From the NCBI GenBank assembly GCA_902763885.1, contig CACWTU010000001.1, positions 124,001 through 188,000 of the forward strand: a stretch of DNA of 64,000 nt, in the 5' to 3' direction. The stretch is from an uncultured Bacteroidales bacterium (GTDB lineage Bacteria; Bacteroidota; Bacteroidia; Bacteroidales; Bacteroidaceae). The translations under genes and the position numbers were made by a program. The notes below the pieces were generated by a model that was given only the letters and a program-made list of their open reading frames with translations, was not told the DNA's origin and searched no databases. This document shows, one piece after another, positions 10,456 through 41,302 of the stretch. Position 1 is the first letter of the stretch, and each line of letters opens with the position of its first letter.

Positions 10456-11937
10456 ATGGCTTTCAAAAGAATCACCGCTGCTGAGGCAGCACGTTTCGTC
10501 AAGAATGGTGACAATGTAGGTCTGAGCGGTTTTACACCCGCAGGAACTCCTAAGGCAGTAACACATGAGATTGGTTTAATGGCCCATGAACTCCATGAGA
10601 AGGGGCAGGAGTTTCAGATAAGTCTGTTTACCGGTGCATCTACCGGTGACTCCTGTGACGGTATCCTGGCACGTGAGCACGCCCTACGCTACCGTGCGCC
10701 TTACACTACAAACAAGGATTTCCGTACCGCTGTCAACAACGGTGAGATTGCCTACAATGACATCAATCTGAGCCATATGGCACAGGAAATGCGTTACGGT
10801 TTCTACGGAAAACTGAACATAGGCATAATGGAGGCCTTTGATGTAACTGATGACGGTAAGATATGGGTAACCGCAGGTGTGGGTATCGCTCCCACTGTGG
10901 CACGTCTTGCCGATAAGATTATCATTGAACTCAATGCAGCCCACGCCCGTTGCGCCAAAGGCCTGCATGACATATATGAGCCGGCTGATCCTCCTTACCG
11001 TCGCGAGATACCTGTCTATTCTCCCAGTGACCATATCGGCAAGGATTACATCCAGGTAGATCCCTCCAAGATTCTGGGTGTAGTTGAAGTTAATATCCCC
11101 GATGAGGCACGCGGCTTTACCGCTCCTGATGAGACCACTCTCCAGATAGGCCATAACGTAGCCCAGTTCCTTATCAGTGACCTCAAGCGTGGAATCATTC
11201 CATCAACATTTCTGCCTCTGCAGAGCGGTGTAGGTAACGTTGCAAACGCTGTCCTGGGTGCTCTGGGTGAGGATCCTTCTGTTCCCGCATTCCAGATGTA
11301 CACTGAGGTTATCCAGGATTCCGTGATTGACCTGATGCGTGAGGGTCACTGCAAGTTCGGTTCAAGTTCATCACTGAGTGTAAGCAACGAGACCCTGCAG
11401 GGCATCTATGATGATATGAATTTCTTCAAGGATAAGCTGGTGCTCCGTCCTACCGAGATTTCAAACAGCCCCGAGGTTGCACGTCGTCTTGGCCTGATTG
11501 CAATGAACACTGCCCTAGAGGCCGATATCTACGGCAACGTGAACTCAACCCACGTAAGCGGCGTTAAGATGATGAACGGTGTGGGCGGTTCTGCCGATTT
11601 CACCCGCAACGCTTTCATCTCAATCTTCAGCTGTCCGTCAGTAGCCAAGGGAGGCAAGATCAGCGCCATCGTTCCCATGTGTACACACGTGGATCACAAC
11701 GAGCACAGCGTAAAGGTGCTCATCACCGAGCAGGGTATTGCCGACCTGCGTGGCAAGTCACCTGCCGAGCGCGCCAAGTGCATCATTGAGAACTGCGTGC
11801 ATCCTGACTACAAGCAGCTCATGTGGGATTACCTCAAGATAGCCCAGAAAGGCCAGACCAGCCACGCCCTCGACAAAGCTTTTGCTCTCCACAAGGCACT
11901 CGCCGAGAAGGGCGACATGCACCTCGCAGAATTCTAA
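10456..11937 (+). CDS. Succinyl-CoA:acetate CoA-transferase (acetyl-CoA hydrolase/transferase family)
   Basis: This 493-residue enzyme belongs to the class I CoA-transferase group that includes AarC, Cat1 and ScpC. It moves CoA between succinyl-CoA and acetate, and in Bacteroidales it links the succinate and propionate pathways to acetate activation. Recognisable segments are GLSGFTPAGTPKAV at the N-terminus, LQSGVGNVANAVLGAL, the catalytic-glutamate region MYTEVIQDS near residue 283, and the C-terminal ITEQGIADLRGKSP. It is monocistronic, between a clear promoter and a strong terminator hairpin. GC-rich codon use and strong signals suggest high expression. The exact acyl partner is inferred from the family. 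Confidence 0.92.
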   Translation: MAFKRITAAEAARFVKNGDNVGLSGFTPAGTPKAVTHEIGLMAHELHEKGQEFQISLFTGASTGDSCDGILAREHALRYRAPYTTNKDFRTAVNNGEIAYNDINLSHMAQEMRYGFYGKLNIGIMEAFDVTDDGKIWVTAGVGIAPTVARLADKIIIELNAAHARCAKGLHDIYEPADPPYRREIPVYSPSDHIGKDYIQVDPSKILGVVEVNIPDEARGFTAPDETTLQIGHNVAQFLISDLKRGIIPSTFLPLQSGVGNVANAVLGALGEDPSVPAFQMYTEVIQDSVIDLMREGHCKFGSSSSLSVSNETLQGIYDDMNFFKDKLVLRPTEISNSPEVARRLGLIAMNTALEADIYGNVNSTHVSGVKMMNGVGGSADFTRNAFISIFSCPSVAKGGKISAIVPMCTHVDHNEHSVKVLITEQGIADLRGKSPAERAKCIIENCVHPDYKQLMWDYLKIAQKGQTSHALDKAFALHKALAEKGDMHLAEF

Positions 11938-11944
11938 AAGAAGT

Positions 11945-11983
11945 GGAGGGGCACAAAAGGGACGGTTCTTTTTGTGCCCCTCC
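11945..11983 (+). terminator. Strong hairpin terminator after the CoA-transferase gene
   Basis: Perfect 14-nt arms (11945-11958 and 11970-11983, GGAGGGGCACAAAA and its complement) enclose an 11-nt loop and are followed by CTCTTTT. The loop and right arm contain the 16-mer GACGGTTCTTTTTGTG, which recurs at 18128-18143. Confidence 0.8.
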
Positions 11984-12042
11984 TCTTTTGGGAAATATCA
12001 GAAACGATTCGTAGCCATCTCGTTGCGGATCGTCTCTTTTGT

Positions 12043-12176
12043 GCCATACTTGCACGCAGTAGCGCTGTGAGCCACATTTTCCGCAAGTACGGCAACAAAT
12101 ACGCAGGTTTGGGCCATTTTTGCGGCCATACTTGCAAAAAACCGCCCGCACAAGCCCTGCACTTGCAAGTACGGCC
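12043..12176 (-). repeat. 134-bp double-hairpin REP-like element, copy A
   Basis: The element has two inverted pairs of the core GCCATACTTGC/GCAAGTACGGC. The first hairpin is 12043-12093 and the second 12124-12176, with a 30-nt linker. Its reverse complement matches copy B (15638-15772) over nearly the full length, including loops and linker, so it is drawn on the minus strand. It ends 4 nt from the stop codon of the RAYT-like transposase, the placement expected of a REP element and its transposase. Confidence 0.88.
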
Positions 12177-12179
12177 ACA

Positions 12180-13313
12180 TCAAAGGAAAAGACAACGTCG
12201 CGCCTGCATGTCCTGCACATGGAAATCATTGGTGAGGATAAGGTGTATTGACCAGCGTTTTTCAGGGTTTAATTGATAAATGGATTGCACCTTGAACTCC
12301 GGTAAAATGCATCGGTCTATAATACCACAAAGATCAATATCACTTCTGGTATTCTTGAAAGTGGAGGAACGCTCGTTGTATAGATAATCTTTGATATCGT
12401 CATCAGAATGAAGGGGCTCTATATCCGATATCTGTACTGAAGGTCTGCCATTTCTGTCCTGATCCTGCTCCTGAATCCACTTTTCATCGGTCTTGCGGAA
12501 CATGTTATATTCAAATGCTCCCGGTGAAACAAACAACAATTCGGTTTGCCTAAGTTGTTCAAAGCAAGGCCTCAGGAATACTCCGGATGGTGACATTACC
12601 CATTCATCGGGCCACTCGGAATATCTGGGAAGGTATTGTTTCATGTCACTTAGGTCTGTTATCGGACTATAACCAAAGGGGAAAACCAGTCCATGAGCAG
12701 TCTTATTATTCAAGGAGGTTGATTTAATCCAATGGCCGGACCTGTTCCTACGAAACTCTGTTAAGCTATTGCTTCCTTGGTATGGCCTGTCAGTCTTACC
12801 CAGTTCGGGAACAAACATATCGTTGATTGAAGAGTAGGGATACATGAAAGCAGTACCGGAAACACCATGATGCAAACCATTCCGCAACACATAACTACAG
12901 GCCGAAATCATATGGTAATTACCCTCAATTACCAACGAGAAGTAGTATTTCTGACCCATCCGTCCTTCATTGCGATGATATTTCTTGACAAAGAACCAGG
13001 TATATCTCCTCCTAAGTGAACTTACAAATTCTGAAAGTTGACTAGAGTCGGAATAAAGTATTCCTCCTTGTGTGTTGAAACCGTTTTTGTGTACTGTTTT
13101 GCCTGCGATTCCAAAAGAGAGTCTGTTCTCTTTTTTGTCCGATGAAAACAATAGAAGATGCACATGATTGGACATCTCTGTATCGGCAAAGATATCAACT
13201 CCGTACTTCCATGAACATAAGGCCAGAATATTAAGAAAAGTTCCTACATCATCGGGACTTCTGAACATCACCTCCTCGTGGGAAGTGAAACAACAATGAA
13301 TCATTTGTTTCAT
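12180..13313 (-). CDS. REP-associated tyrosine transposase-like protein (Y1/HUH family)
   Basis: The N-terminal 170 residues show the Y1 transposase pattern. A start like IHCCFTSHEEVMFRSPDD is followed by the HUH metal-binding motif in SNHVHLLLF. The later segment ACSYVLRNGLHH, then YPYSSI, corresponds to the family's catalytic-tyrosine helix and the usual YPWSS stretch. The protein (377 residues from the ATG at 13313) is longer than typical RAYTs, with about 180 extra C-terminal residues of no recognised domain. A TTG start at 13346 is possible but unlikely. The gene is flanked by the double-hairpin element at its 3' end and a GGGG-CAG-CCCC palindrome at its 5' end, which supports a role in moving such elements. 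Confidence 0.8.
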   Translation of the reverse strand: MKQMIHCCFTSHEEVMFRSPDDVGTFLNILALCSWKYGVDIFADTEMSNHVHLLLFSSDKKENRLSFGIAGKTVHKNGFNTQGGILYSDSSQLSEFVSSLRRRYTWFFVKKYHRNEGRMGQKYYFSLVIEGNYHMISACSYVLRNGLHHGVSGTAFMYPYSSINDMFVPELGKTDRPYQGSNSLTEFRRNRSGHWIKSTSLNNKTAHGLVFPFGYSPITDLSDMKQYLPRYSEWPDEWVMSPSGVFLRPCFEQLRQTELLFVSPGAFEYNMFRKTDEKWIQEQDQDRNGRPSVQISDIEPLHSDDDIKDYLYNERSSTFKNTRSDIDLCGIIDRCILPEFKVQSIYQLNPEKRWSIHLILTNDFHVQDMQARRCLFL

Positions 13314-13344
13314 GATAAAATGGTATTTAGAAAAGAAATAGATC

Positions 13345-13376
13345 AAAAGGGGGCAGCCCCAATTGCATCATTTTTT
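13345..13376. repeat. Dispersed palindrome family member 2, overlapping the helicase stop codon
   Basis: On the minus strand the sequence reads AAAAAATGATGCAATTGGGG, then CTG, CCCCC, TTTT. This is a diverged copy of the elements at 8942 and 30602. The helicase TGA stop (13368-13370) lies within it. It separates the helicase gene from the RAYT-like gene downstream and may end the helicase transcript. Confidence 0.72.
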
Positions 13377-15518
13377 GTGTTTGGCAATCAGTTCCAGGAT
13401 TTCTTCGCCGTACTGTTTCCATTTGGCGGGGCCGAATCCGTTTACATGTAACAGTTCCTCTTTGGTCGATGGGCAGGTGTCAGCTATTTCAAGGAGGGTG
13501 CGCTGGGTTAGAACCCAGTAGGCGCGGATGTTCTGAGCCATGTATTGTTCGGTACGCCAGTCTATGAGCGGTTGAATGAGCTCGGGGTGGCGGTTGTCAG
13601 AGTAGATTTCCTCAACGGTGGGCTTGGTTTTTACTATCTTCTCCTTAACCGGTTTAGGCTCTTTTATCTTTTTGACCGATGTTTTGGGTTTGGGTGACAA
13701 CAGGGAATCATTCCTTATTTTGAGATATGATTCTATGCTGAATCCGTTTTCCTGTATCTCTTTCAGACTTTGAATATGCATGGAGAGTTCAGGTAGCAAT
13801 TCGCCCGATGCATCAGTGAGAGATTTCTTTACATCTTTATTGTCGATAGATACGGACATGATTGGTGTTACATCCGATGCCACTTGGATCAGTATCGGAA
13901 GGAAATAACCGGCAGCTTTTTCAACTCTCTCAACAAGATGAGTTTTGTCGTTTGGTCCTATTCTGTCCAGTTCCCTACGAAATACCTCAGCAACTTTCTC
14001 AACATCCCTGATCTTGCGGCGGTTCTCCTCCATCCTTGCGGTCTGTTCCGGGTAGGTGTTCTTGAGATGGTTATTGAATATTCCGCCTGCCCAACCGGTT
14101 AGTCTTTCAAGTTCACTGAAAGAGAAGCACTCCTTGAGTATGTTCATGAAATACTCAGCACGCGATGCCGCCAGTTGCCTTTCCATCTCGGATACGGGCA
14201 GGAACTGCTCATGAAATCCTGATACATCGCTGTTGTTGAACAGACAGGATTGTGAAATCGGGCTGCTCAGAACAATCCCTTCAAGTGTACGACATCGTGA
14301 CAGTGCCACATATACCTGCCCGAATGTAAAGGCCGATGCCGCATCGATAATTACATTGTCAAATGTCAGTCCCTGGCTCTTATGAATCGTTACTGCCCAT
14401 GCAGCACGTAGCGGATACTGAGAGAATGTACCTTCAACCTTAGGTACAATCTCTTTTGTCTCTTTGTCTATCTCATATTGTATGTTCTCCCACTTTTCTA
14501 TAGGAACATTGATTTCATCGCCGTTTTCATCAGTCACTATGATACCTTCATCATAATCAATTTCGGTCACGGTGGCAATCTTTCCGTTATAGTATCGGCC
14601 CTCACGGGAATCGTTGCGCAGGAACATCACCTGCGCTCCTTCCTTGAGTTGGAGCACCTTCTCAGCAGGGAGAGTGTTCTCGGGGAAGTTGCCCTCAATC
14701 TCGGCATAGAATGTGTATGGCCTTGTCTTAAGGGCCTCCATTTTCTCCTGGTTTATACTATCCGCCTGGCGGTTGTGAGTGGTCAGGCGGATCCACCGTT
14801 GGCCCGATGCTGCAACACTGTCATCGGGATTGAAACGAGGATCCAGGCGGCTGTTCAGCATACGGTATGTGGCATTGTCCATCACTCCGCCTCTAATGCT
14901 GTTGAGTATGTTTAGAAATGATGTATCTGATTGACGGTAAACAGTTTGCAGTTCTATGGTGATGTACTTAAGTTGCCTCATGACCTTGGAGTGAAAAAAG
15001 AAAGGTGATCGATACACTTTCTTTAGCCAAGGCTCGTCCTGCTCGGTCACGACTGGTGGCAACTGGTGAGCATCGCCTATCATCAGCAACTGAACTCCTC
15101 CAAAAGGAAGGTTGCTATGCCTGTATCGGCGCATTACCGCGTCAACAGCATCCAACAGGTCTGCCCGGACCATGGATATCTCATCTATTATAAGCAGGTC
15201 CAGCGTCTTGATGATCTTTACTTTTTCTTTACGTAACTGGCGCCTTGCATCGGGCAACTGGTATTCAGTAACTAACTCTTTGACATCGGGCAGATAGGGG
15301 CACAATGGGAGTTGGAAGAAAGAATGGATTGTAACACCGCCTGCGTTGATTGCAGCCACACCTGTGGGCGCCAGCACGACACAGCGTTTGGGCGTATTCT
15401 CAACGATGTATTTAAGGAAAGTGGTTTTACCGGTCCCGGCCCTACCGGTAAGAAAGACGGATATTCCCGTCTCAGAAATGTAATTTTCGGCCAGTTCAAA
15501 CAAGTGATCTTTGTTCAT
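13368..15518 (-). CDS. PIF1-type DNA helicase with C-terminal HRDC domain
   Basis: The 716-residue protein is a superfamily 1B helicase. Its motifs are Walker A FLTGRAGTGKTTFLKYI (about residue 20-36), APTGVAAINAGG, Walker B LLIIDEISMVRADLL, GDAHQLPP, and the C-terminal helicase motifs AWAVTIHKSQGLTFDNVIID and YVALSRCR. After a helical linker rich in lysine and proline (about residues 595-635), the last 75 residues form an HRDC domain (FGPAKWKQYGEEIL) of the RecQ type. PIF1 relatives unwind DNA 5' to 3' and act on G-quadruplexes or R-loops; the HRDC domain would add nucleic-acid binding. The stop codon is supplied by a palindromic repeat. Confidence 0.9.
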   Translation of the reverse strand: MNKDHLFELAENYISETGISVFLTGRAGTGKTTFLKYIVENTPKRCVVLAPTGVAAINAGGVTIHSFFQLPLCPYLPDVKELVTEYQLPDARRQLRKEKVKIIKTLDLLIIDEISMVRADLLDAVDAVMRRYRHSNLPFGGVQLLMIGDAHQLPPVVTEQDEPWLKKVYRSPFFFHSKVMRQLKYITIELQTVYRQSDTSFLNILNSIRGGVMDNATYRMLNSRLDPRFNPDDSVAASGQRWIRLTTHNRQADSINQEKMEALKTRPYTFYAEIEGNFPENTLPAEKVLQLKEGAQVMFLRNDSREGRYYNGKIATVTEIDYDEGIIVTDENGDEINVPIEKWENIQYEIDKETKEIVPKVEGTFSQYPLRAAWAVTIHKSQGLTFDNVIIDAASAFTFGQVYVALSRCRTLEGIVLSSPISQSCLFNNSDVSGFHEQFLPVSEMERQLAASRAEYFMNILKECFSFSELERLTGWAGGIFNNHLKNTYPEQTARMEENRRKIRDVEKVAEVFRRELDRIGPNDKTHLVERVEKAAGYFLPILIQVASDVTPIMSVSIDNKDVKKSLTDASGELLPELSMHIQSLKEIQENGFSIESYLKIRNDSLLSPKPKTSVKKIKEPKPVKEKIVKTKPTVEEIYSDNRHPELIQPLIDWRTEQYMAQNIRAYWVLTQRTLLEIADTCPSTKEELLHVNGFGPAKWKQYGEEILELIAKHKK

Positions 15519-15556
15519 TGGTTTAGTTTTTTAGTGTATTTCATAATTCATCTTTG

Positions 15557-15564
15557 CAAATATA
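15557..15564 (-). promoter_or_regulatory. -7 box upstream of the helicase gene
   Basis: TATATTTG on the minus strand fits the Bacteroidota -7 consensus, 38 nt before the start codon. No convincing -33 box is seen. Confidence 0.4.
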
Positions 15565-15637
15565 TGTATTTAGACCGAAATAAATGTGCAGGAACACTCT
15601 TTCCTTTCAACGCAGGTGCATTCCATTTCTTTGTTGT

Positions 15638-15772
15638 GGCCGTACTTGCAAATGCAGGGCTTGTGCGGGCGATTTTTTGCAAGTATGGCCTCAAAAATGG
15701 CCAAAACCTACGTTTTTGCTGCCGTACTTGCGGGAAATGTGGTTTACAGAGCCACTGTGTGCAAGTACGGCC
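15638..15772 (+). repeat. 135-bp double-hairpin REP-like element, copy B
   Basis: Two hairpins (15638-15690 and 15721-15772) have stems GGCCGTACTTGC/GCAAGTATGGCC and GCCGTACTTGC/GCAAGTACGGC. The linker is 30 nt. Copy B is inverted relative to copy A 3.5 kb away and in the same orientation as copy C at 40920. It lies in the 464-nt gap between the divergent helicase and ABC-transporter genes. The rest of that gap (15519-15637, 15773-15890) holds only promoter-like boxes and a short CGCACGTGCG palindrome near 15840. Confidence 0.88.
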
Positions 15773-15982: not shown

Positions 15983-16819
15983 ATGATTACAATTAACAAA
16001 CTTGCTTTCAGTTATGGCGATAACGTGGTGCTGAAAGACATTTCAATGAAACTTGAAGAGGGCCGCATCTACGGACTTCTGGGAGAAAACGGAGTAGGAA
16101 AGACTACTCTGCTCACCTTGCTTGCCGGTCTTAAAAAGGCCGATGAAGGTTCTGTTGACATAGATGGTTATGTACCGTTTGACCGCAAACCTTCTTTCCT
16201 TTCCAAAATCTATTATCTGCCTGATGAAGTGGCAGCTGTAAAGTCAAAAGCTCTTGATTATGCAGCTGATCAGGGACAGTTCTGGACAGACTTTGACCTG
16301 GACAAGTTCCGCAAGATAATGGAGATATTTGAGAATGATGAGAATATGCGTATGGACCGTATGTCATACGGACAGCTCAAGAAGACCTACATCAGTTTTG
16401 CACTTGCCTGCAATGCCAGGTATCTCCTGATGGATGAGCCTACCAACGGTCTGGATATCCCTTCCAAGGCTCAGTTCCGCAAGGCTGTATCCAAATATAC
16501 ATCAGATGATTCCACCCTGCTTATCTCAACCCATCAGGTCCGTGATCTTGAGACCCTGATTGATCCCATCATCATTCTGGACCGCAGGGATGTGCTGCTC
16601 AACGCATCAATTGATGAAATAACCCAAAAACTCTATTTTGATTATACATCAGCCGTTGATGATGAGGCATTGTATTCAGAAACAATTCCCGGAGGTTGCA
16701 TACAGGTACTTAAGAATACAACAGGCAGTGAGAGCAAAGTGAACATTGAGGCTCTGTTCAACACTGTTCACATGCACAAGGATCTAATTAAGGATATGTT
16801 CAACAATAAAAACGCATGA
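15983..16819 (+). CDS. ABC transporter ATP-binding protein (YtrB/CcmA-type)
   Basis: The 278-residue ATPase has Walker A LLGENGVGKTTLL, a signature MSYGQLKK in place of LSGGQ, and Walker B YLLMDEPTNGLD followed by the H-loop ISTHQ. The atypical signature and the short length fit the GntR-linked efflux or bacitracin-stress ABC group (YtrB-like). It overlaps the membrane-protein gene by 4 nt, and a GntR regulator closes the operon. The exported substrate is unknown. Confidence 0.88.
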   Translation: MITINKLAFSYGDNVVLKDISMKLEEGRIYGLLGENGVGKTTLLTLLAGLKKADEGSVDIDGYVPFDRKPSFLSKIYYLPDEVAAVKSKALDYAADQGQFWTDFDLDKFRKIMEIFENDENMRMDRMSYGQLKKTYISFALACNARYLLMDEPTNGLDIPSKAQFRKAVSKYTSDDSTLLISTHQVRDLETLIDPIIILDRRDVLLNASIDEITQKLYFDYTSAVDDEALYSETIPGGCIQVLKNTTGSESKVNIEALFNTVHMHKDLIKDMFNNKNA

Positions 16820-40919: not shown

Positions 40920-41053
40920 GCCATACTTGCAGAAAAAATGCTCCACAAGCCGTACACCTGCAAGTACGGCTCCAAAAATGCCCAAAACAGCTGATTTCGT
41001 TGCCGTACTTGCACAAAATCGCCCTTACGAACTATCTGTCTGCAAGTATGGCC
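40920..41053 (+). repeat. 134-bp double-hairpin REP-like element, copy C
   Basis: Hairpins 40920-40970 and 41002-41053 use the same stems GCCATACTTGC/GCAAGTACGGC and GCCGTACTTGC/GCAAGTATGGC, separated by a 31-nt linker. Loops and linker are more diverged than between copies A and B, but the stems are conserved, as expected if the structure matters. It begins 2 nt after tatD and ends 29 nt before the structured RNA candidate. Confidence 0.86.
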
Positions 41054-41081
41054 GGATATGCGACAGTTTCCTTTTGCAGGA

Positions 41082-41273
41082 GCCGGAAATCCGTTTTGGA
41101 GAGCGTTAGTGCAGTGGCGTTAAGCGTAGGCCCTCGGAAGATCCCGTTAAGAACGGCGCATGTTTGAGGAACGTTACACACCGAAGGTGGGTAAAAGTCC
41201 GAGTTCGACGTTTAGGGTCTGGAGAGGGCCGGAGTAGCCACGGAATGTCGTCTCTCTAAAACGGATGTCCGGC
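41082..41273 (+). ncRNA. Candidate structured RNA of about 192 nt, family not identified
   Basis: The 22-nt arms 41082-41103 (GCCGGAAATCCGTTTTGGAGAG) and 41252-41273 pair throughout, except one mismatch and one G-U. Further inside, GTGGC (41114-41118) pairs with GCCAC (41237-41241) and GGCCCTC (41129-41135) with GAGGGCC (41224-41230). Near the tip are small hairpins CCGTT-AAG-AACGG and CACC-GAA-GGTG. The result is a long rod with internal loops and a branched tip, reminiscent in outline of 6S-type RNAs. I could not match it to 6S, RNase P, tmRNA, SRP RNA or a known riboswitch. No convincing coding frame spans it. The strand is assumed from the neighbours, since helices are symmetric. A MITE with terminal inverted repeats is the main alternative. 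Confidence 0.55.
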
Positions 41274-41302
41274 GGAGTCCCAAACAAAAGACGCTTTTCC
41301 TG

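Follow-up and report, generated by a model that had tools for sequence, protein, structure and literature searches.

What holds a RAYT-like transposase gene, a helicase gene and a 133-bp palindromic repeat together at one place in a Bacteroidales genome, and what does the repeat do there? REP/RAYT systems, in which a transposase (RAYT) is associated with repetitive extragenic palindromes (REPs), are well-known domesticated bacterial transposases. We analysed a window of 64,000 nucleotides (contig CACWTU010000001.1 of assembly GCA_902763885.1, positions 124,001 to 188,000, forward strand) from an uncultured Bacteroidales bacterium, whose genome (G000) spans 2.71 Mb in 27 contigs with a completeness of 90.92, and compared it with a genus sample of 37 genomes within this group of gut and rumen Bacteroidales. 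Our reading, to which we give a probability of about 0.65, is that the locus is a REPtron-type unit, formed by a RAYT and its own REPIN-like repeat (a REPIN being a REP doublet that forms a hairpin, as the definition is quoted in Quentin 2018, PMC6006769), and that the block between the repeats inverts, most likely by homologous recombination.

Copies A (12043..12175, minus strand) and B (15639..15771, plus strand) of the element are inverted relative to each other and enclose two genes: the RAYT gene (12180..13313, minus strand) at the end of copy A and, at the end of copy B, a gene for a PIF1-like helicase with an HRDC domain (13368..15518, minus strand; 716 aa; Pfam PF05970 and PF00570). 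The stop codon of the RAYT gene (12180-12182) lies 4 nt from copy A, as an earlier note on this DNA had stated. The homology between A and B continues for 13 nt into the block (12176..12188, minus strand, and 15626..15638, plus strand), giving an inverted repeat of 146 nt (12043-12188 and 15626-15771) which is 89% complementary. Copy C (40920..41052, minus strand) is solitary and precedes a tyrS-like gene. At up to one mismatch, the arm GCC(A/G)TACTTGC occurs 12 times in the window, always exactly and always within copies A, B and C; shuffled windows contain a mean of 1.66 and a maximum of 6 arms (0 of 100 reach 12), which bears out the three copies with this shared stem that the earlier note had placed here. 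Its remark that the third copy is more diverged also holds: A and B are identical at 119 of 133 positions, whereas the best match of C is 84/133 with A and 86/133 with B. Each copy is 133 bp long with arm offsets of 0/40/82/122, and is built of two inverted 51-bp halves (11-bp arms, 29-bp loops) around a 31-bp spacer. With three wider patterns, whose sets of copies overlap, the length is 133 bp in 20 of 21, 18 of 18 and 20 of 23 copies and 134 bp in the remainder; the constancy of length is taken from these because the pattern that yielded the 46 copies used for the fold itself fixed the spacer at 31 and the loops at 29-30.

Concerning the fold, the structure counts are based on 42 distinct gap-free copies of these 46 (three of 134 bp and one duplicate were excluded), and closely related rows inflate the covariation counts. 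When the arms are paired in a nested way (1-4 and 2-3), 94.8% of the cells are paired and the covariation is 0.103 against 0.068 in shuffled alignments (reached by 0/500), with 26 cells changed on both sides. Consecutive pairing gives 92.0% paired cells and a covariation of 0.071 against 0.067, which 64 of 500 shuffles reach; pairs 8-44 and 93-123 are broken in 24 and 25 of the 42 copies. Two consecutive hairpins with all stems kept, as the earlier note described the element, are thus rejected on covariation grounds as the conserved structure. That note had named stems failing to covary as what would refute it; this is true of the consecutive hairpins, but the same arms do covary when nested. 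The nested form is also returned by RNAalifold unprompted. Among six predicted single-strand folds four are nested, namely those of A minus, B plus and the two strands of C. The minus strand of copy B gives two hairpins, and the plus strand of copy A forms just the first of the two hairpins and is unremarkable (z -1.10). Because the arms covary as nested pairs in the 42 copies, we regard the element as one long imperfect palindrome in which two inverted halves form a single nested hairpin, like the REPIN, reportedly described by Bertels and Rainey in 2011.

The RAYT-like protein is a Y1 HUH protein of 377 aa when read from its ATG, or 388 aa if it starts at the TTG further upstream (13346), and has a long C-terminal extension. 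It has no Pfam match at E 0.001, and it scores 21.6 bits against the NCBIfam REP transposase model NF047646 (cut-off 80) and 12.2 bits against Y1_Tnp (cut-off 23); the members of its family match the RAYT (TnpA-REP) models weakly or below the curated cut-offs. The family alignment contains the 24 open reading frames (ORFs) of at least 300 aa out of 28 distinct ones of at least 120 aa; the excluded ORFs have 287, 206, 154 and 131 aa. At E <=1 the REP transposase model matches all 24 members (best 3e-10) and Y1_Tnp 21 of them. H50, H52 and Y141 are invariant in the alignment, as expected of an HUH motif with its tyrosine, and conserved columns reach the C-terminus; which tyrosine would be the catalytic one is suggested by a weak alignment with 4er8 (E 1). 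The motif NHVH is kept, YVLRNG replaces YIH[QN]NP and G(Q/E) replaces WQ. The protein is under purifying selection, with dN/dS values of 0.052-0.076 in four pairs and a fifth pair saturated.

The extension, which the earlier note had thought unusual, is present but not peculiar to this protein: 24 of the 28 distinct ORFs reach 300 aa and the other four are cut or broken. A profile search at E 1e-10 matches 53 of 393 sampled genomes of the order, G000 included, and among the matches listed none from other genera extends beyond profile position 207 of 308; a single-sequence search at E 1e-5 matches 12 of 301 genomes of the family Bacteroidaceae, all within the genus. We claim no fold for the extension. 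The full-length model is poor (mean predicted local distance difference test score, pLDDT, 36.6), the C-terminal model has a pLDDT of 50.8 with block means of 65-86 solely in the last ~50 residues, and a fold search of the PDB gave no match at E <=0.001 among 178 at E 10. A helix-turn-helix model is touched by one of the 24 members (E 0.027). In viral contigs, none of the 23 stretches that matched a pattern encodes a relative.

The link between the RAYT and the repeat is strong. Nine genomes of the genus have an ortholog of the RAYT (that of G133 lacks an inner stretch) and G203 has a broken remnant. The earlier note proposed to check whether copy number tracks the transposase: elements are found in 10/10 genomes with the RAYT or its remnant, in 3 of the 27 other genomes of the genus and in 0/280 genomes sampled from the family's other genera (301 genomes were searched, 21 of them from the genus; the control with a reversed pattern gave 0 among the matches listed). 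The number of genomes with elements depends on the pattern, from 11/37 for the outer arms without mismatches to 13/37 for the inner arms with two. Copy number ranges from 1 to 11 in the ten RAYT genomes and is 6 in G000, which has one RAYT of this family; REPs are expected at more than 100 per genome. The GT(A/G)G foot of REP hairpins is also lacking as a constant feature: arm 1 follows GTGG in the two copies of G000, ATGG or TTGG in G133, G314 and G315, and TTGC in one G316 copy. Copies on the RAYT side and on the helicase side are both present in 7 of the 9 ortholog genomes, always facing inward, and one copy is seen in G313 and in G301. All ten blocks with the RAYT or its remnant share one gene neighbourhood, and the helicase adjoins the window-type RAYT in 11/11 cases, an association which is new here.

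The repeat changes when the RAYT changes. G267 has a 59% relative that likewise adjoins a helicase. Upstream of this helicase lie TGACAATGTCGC arms (offsets 0/41/82/124 by reading), and an arm of the TGACAATGTCGC type starts at the RAYT stop codon, after which the contig ends. Beside 20 further or diverged RAYT loci, four-arm repeats are found on 23 of 37 flanks and on both sides at 11 loci, compared with 0/37 dinucleotide shuffles and 5 of 118 stretches at least 3 kb from the RAYT at the same loci. The arms beside the diverged RAYTs include CAAACCTGCA, CAATACTGCA, CAACTTTGCA, ACCTTAGGGA, GTTAGGGACA, CAGGATAGGG, GCGGACACTA and others. In this test 37 of 40 flanks were long enough, several loci are closely related, two of the five positive controls belong to one array, and the one flank tested at G267 (contig C40), that on the helicase side, scored nothing. 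The earlier reading of the locus as a relative of REP/BIME-RAYT systems is therefore upheld by the invariant HxH and tyrosine, the weak model matches of 24/24 members, the cognate inverted repeats on both sides, the other repeats at diverged RAYTs and the co-occurrence. Separately, the diverged RAYT genes at loci L114, L115, L116, L120, L121 and L127 lie between tandem arrays with a period of ~83-84 bp and alternating arms, similar to bacterial interspersed mosaic elements (BIMEs).

The block is flanked by conserved genes: an acetyl-CoA hydrolase/transferase (10456..11937, plus strand; by Pfam, one edge of the flip), a MiaB-type enzyme and a methyltransferase on one side, and an ABC transporter ATPase (15983..16819, plus strand; by Pfam, the other edge), a GntR regulator and RNase R on the other. 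Between these flanks the helicase-RAYT block occurs in opposite orientations, which is also new: G000, G024, G315 and G133 have it facing away from the ABC gene, whereas in G312, G316 and G314 it faces that gene, with at least three changes on the tree among these seven genomes. G000 and G312 are near relatives (helicase 94.8% and nine flank genes 86.5-100% identical in nucleotides) and yet differ in orientation. Over all 19 genomes scored, with and without the RAYT, the helicase changed orientation at least seven times, and the adjacent pair of acetyl-CoA hydrolase and MiaB genes at least three times in 21 genomes; G314 has elements at all three junctions. The tree used for these counts has 7 of 20 inner branches poorly supported. 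Orientation was scored at 19 of 28 helicase loci; the unscored ones are those of G203 (where the block has another place within the neighbourhood), G313 and G301 (stretch without the ABC gene), G267 (contig stops at the RAYT), G119 and G310 (contig ends), and G070, G189 and G309 (helicase elsewhere). In the literature searched, including for RAYT with inversion and helicase, we saw no RAYT block described as occurring both ways round.

A second segment edged by the element is found in seven genomes, the number scored at this locus, beside isopropylmalate-dehydrogenase-like genes. It contains FecCD transporter, esterase and ArsP_2-type exporter genes (Pfam names from the genes of G314, other genomes by protein clusters) and no RAYT. 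Both edges are whole and face inward in G133, G297, G314, G315 and G301; the second copy in G024 runs past the contig end and the contig of G313 holds one edge. In G133, G297, G313 and G301 the segment has one orientation, and G314, G315 and G024 show the opposite one (at least two changes). An EcoRI-methylase family gene is found within it in G297, G024 and G301 and an HNH/GmrSD family gene in G024 and G301 (L152, L154, L151; Pfam on one member each, the others by cluster). As these genes are present in some species only, cargo is gained and lost by the segment.

The position of the crossover differs between pairs of genomes. In G000/G312 the last half of the element agrees at 102/102 positions when matched by flank and at 88 when matched by block end; the element stays with the flank, which puts the crossover at its block-side edge. 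At the second locus, the spacer in G133/G314 follows the flank (74 vs 70), while the element's first 40 bases follow the segment end (74 vs 66). Both parts follow the segment end in G297/G315 (76 vs 65 and 75 vs 71). The other 11 pairs of opposite orientation at the first locus are barely informative, and two more at the second lean to the segment end. A site-specific inversion is expected to use one fixed crossover site, and these three pairs do not share one; homologous recombination therefore fits better than a site-specific enzyme.

On this basis the RAYT, as a Y1 HUH single-strand nuclease, would pair with its cognate REPIN-like imperfect palindrome, and the repeat, when single-stranded, would form one long hairpin with nested stems. 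By what is known of TnpA-REP, the RAYT may nick and rejoin this hairpin, by which the repeat would be kept and spread thinly. The inward-facing copies, as inverted homologies, would allow inversion of the block, for which ordinary homologous recombination is the most likely route, and the copies may be edges at which the block is exchanged between species. The action of the RAYT on the repeat, the route of recombination and any role of the helicase are what we infer. The repeats may reshuffle a genome besides sitting in it.

Several observations weigh against this reading. The helicase alone also flips in RAYT-free genomes (at least four changes among 12), and the RAYT-free junctions have no inverted repeat near element length, the longest match scoring 27 (G175); therefore ancestral elements have since disappeared at these junctions, or inversion can take a different route. 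Three genomes without the window-type RAYT hold elements (G297 seven, G243 one and G308 one with two mismatches). Two of them, G297 and G243, have other RAYT paralogs. The earlier note would have taken it as a refutation if many genomes had the element but no Y1 transposase at all; within the genus this was not seen. The tree allows four independent pairs, of which three agree and one shows no difference (p 0.25; element presence from the outer-arm search with zero mismatches). No four-arm repeat is found on 14 of the 37 RAYT flanks. Nested pair 11-123 is broken in 26 of the 42 copies, and the dyad symmetry of a duplex binding site would produce equal covariation. Finally, the genomes are mostly draft or metagenome assemblies and the orientations are compared between species, one genome each. 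As a separate observation, RAYT-free G175 has a different 109-bp palindrome between the helicase and the acetyl-CoA hydrolase (L087 10116-10224), part of which recurs at the methyltransferase junction.

The inversion might be driven by the RAYT itself, which would nick both inward-facing palindromes and exchange strands with the helicase as helper. The inward-facing pairs at two loci, an orientation almost unrelated to phylogeny and the constant company of helicase and window-type RAYT are in its favour, but we consider it unlikely: the crossovers vary between pairs, and the helicase is found in 28 of 37 genus genomes, many without a RAYT, and beside 0/20 other RAYT-family loci. RAYT-driven inversion is unproven because the helicase also flips in lineages without elements. 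Similarly doubtful is the wider proposal that a HUH (Y1) REP transposase, with its long C-terminal part, and a PIF1-type partner helicase actively invert and swap palindrome-bounded segments, among them one that has DNA methylase and HNH nuclease genes in some species; if true, a domesticated single-strand transposase would be running a system that shuffles segments.

The element might also be a duplex binding site, for the C-terminal part of the RAYT or another protein, with four phased subsites serving regulation or chromosome packing; its dyad symmetry, and not a hairpin, would then be the conserved feature. The arm spacing of 40/42/40 bp, about four helical turns each, is nearly always kept while the loops vary, and the outer and inner arm pairs match by dyad. 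The predicted folds of four strands (C plus, C minus, B plus and A minus), however, beat their shuffles (z -5.74 to -3.24), and Y1 enzymes are known to work on single strands; we find a duplex site improbable. Less probable still is a BIME-like element made up of two successive hairpins that would each be a REP: the four arms with alternating orientation and regular spacing, the array-like repeats at some diverged RAYTs and the two hairpins of B minus speak for it, but the consecutive pairs do not covary and are broken at two positions in more than half of the copies.

A composite transposon moving element, helicase, RAYT and element together is the least probable of all. The unit does recur whole and the helicase of G000 is the least alike of ten genes in comparison with G302, but all ten RAYT or remnant blocks lie in one neighbourhood, G000 has one RAYT and no second location was seen. 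Between G000 and G302 the helicase is 78.8% identical, the methyltransferase 80.2% and the other eight genes 84.7-92.0%; five species that carry the RAYT but are less closely related, and RAYT-free G175, have helicases at 82.9-83.6%. A helicase clade of G000, G312 and G302, named after these identities were seen, is rejected by the DNA test (p 0.006) but not by the protein test (p 0.279). Among lone copies, copy C is kept in place in G312, and its place is covered by no alignment in G302, G104 and G311; the lone copy C3 lies at the same place in G312, and in G302, G104 and G311 the intergenic stretch is much shorter and without a copy. No target duplication was seen on comparing the lone copies of G000 and G312 with these three genomes.

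Returning to the REPtron-type reading, we compared the locus with known systems. Site-specific invertible segments of Bacteroidales lie between inverted repeats and are found both ways round. The block resembles them in being bounded by an inverted repeat and found in both orientations; it differs in that neither of its two genes encodes a serine or tyrosine recombinase, its repeats are 133-146 bp and its crossovers vary. RAYTs are described as flanked by two inverted REPs and as evolving with their cognate repeat; orthologous RAYT genes keep their place and REPtrons are not seen transposing as a unit (Nunvar 2010, PMC2817692; Quentin 2018, PMC6006769). The window system shares with a REPtron the Y1 HUH protein, the inverted cognate repeats on both sides of the RAYT gene, a repeat that changes with the RAYT, copies elsewhere and purifying selection; it differs in having six copies instead of hundreds, no conserved GT(A/G)G foot, a 377-aa protein, a helicase in the block and both orientations (PMC2817692; PMC6006769). 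As in a REPIN, two inverted halves fold together into a long hairpin, but the 51-bp halves, 11-bp arms, 29-bp loops and fixed 31-bp spacer set the element apart (PMC6006769). With BIME arrays it shares alternating arms and regular spacing, and arrays with a period of ~83 bp occur at some diverged RAYTs; the element itself is a single doublet of fixed length (PMC2817692).

A further described group is from Bacteroidetes: TnpA-Y1 subclass 2.6 (Bertels group 5) has atypical flanking secondary structures without the GT(A/G)G foot and, like the window system, copies elsewhere (PMC6006769). Its proteins typically have 179 aa with NH[LIV]H, WQ and YIH[QN]NP, whereas the window RAYT has 377 aa and keeps neither WQ nor YIH[QN]NP. 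The earlier note knew of no Bacteroidales family with this stem, and no description of the stem was found in the literature searched; Bacteroidetes RAYTs with atypical flanks are published (PMC6006769). The many RAYT paralogs in the genus, a sizeable share of which lie next to repeats whose arms differ, offer raw material for the study of RAYT-repeat specificity. Since the genus also offers loci with scorable orientation, inversion and segment exchange as a consequence of the repeats are directly testable.

Other repeats were observed near these loci. G312 (contig C75, L157 321-454 and 5957-6090) has a further inward-facing pair of 134-bp copies ~5.5 kb apart; at the matching place G000 has one copy, and a second 5 kb on in the same direction. 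Directly past the acetyl-CoA hydrolase gene, window positions 11941-11987 form a 47-bp near-perfect palindrome (23-nt arms, 87% complementary, 1 nt apart), probably a terminator. Between copy C and the tyrS-like gene lies a dispersed repeat of ~200 bp (41066-41283) without an Rfam match at the gathering threshold. A query over it gave 24, 20, 44 and 12 alignments in G312, G302, G104 and G311, some of which are flanking genes or the element, and its predicted RNA fold has -91.5 kcal/mol (z -5.07, reached by 0/200 shuffles).

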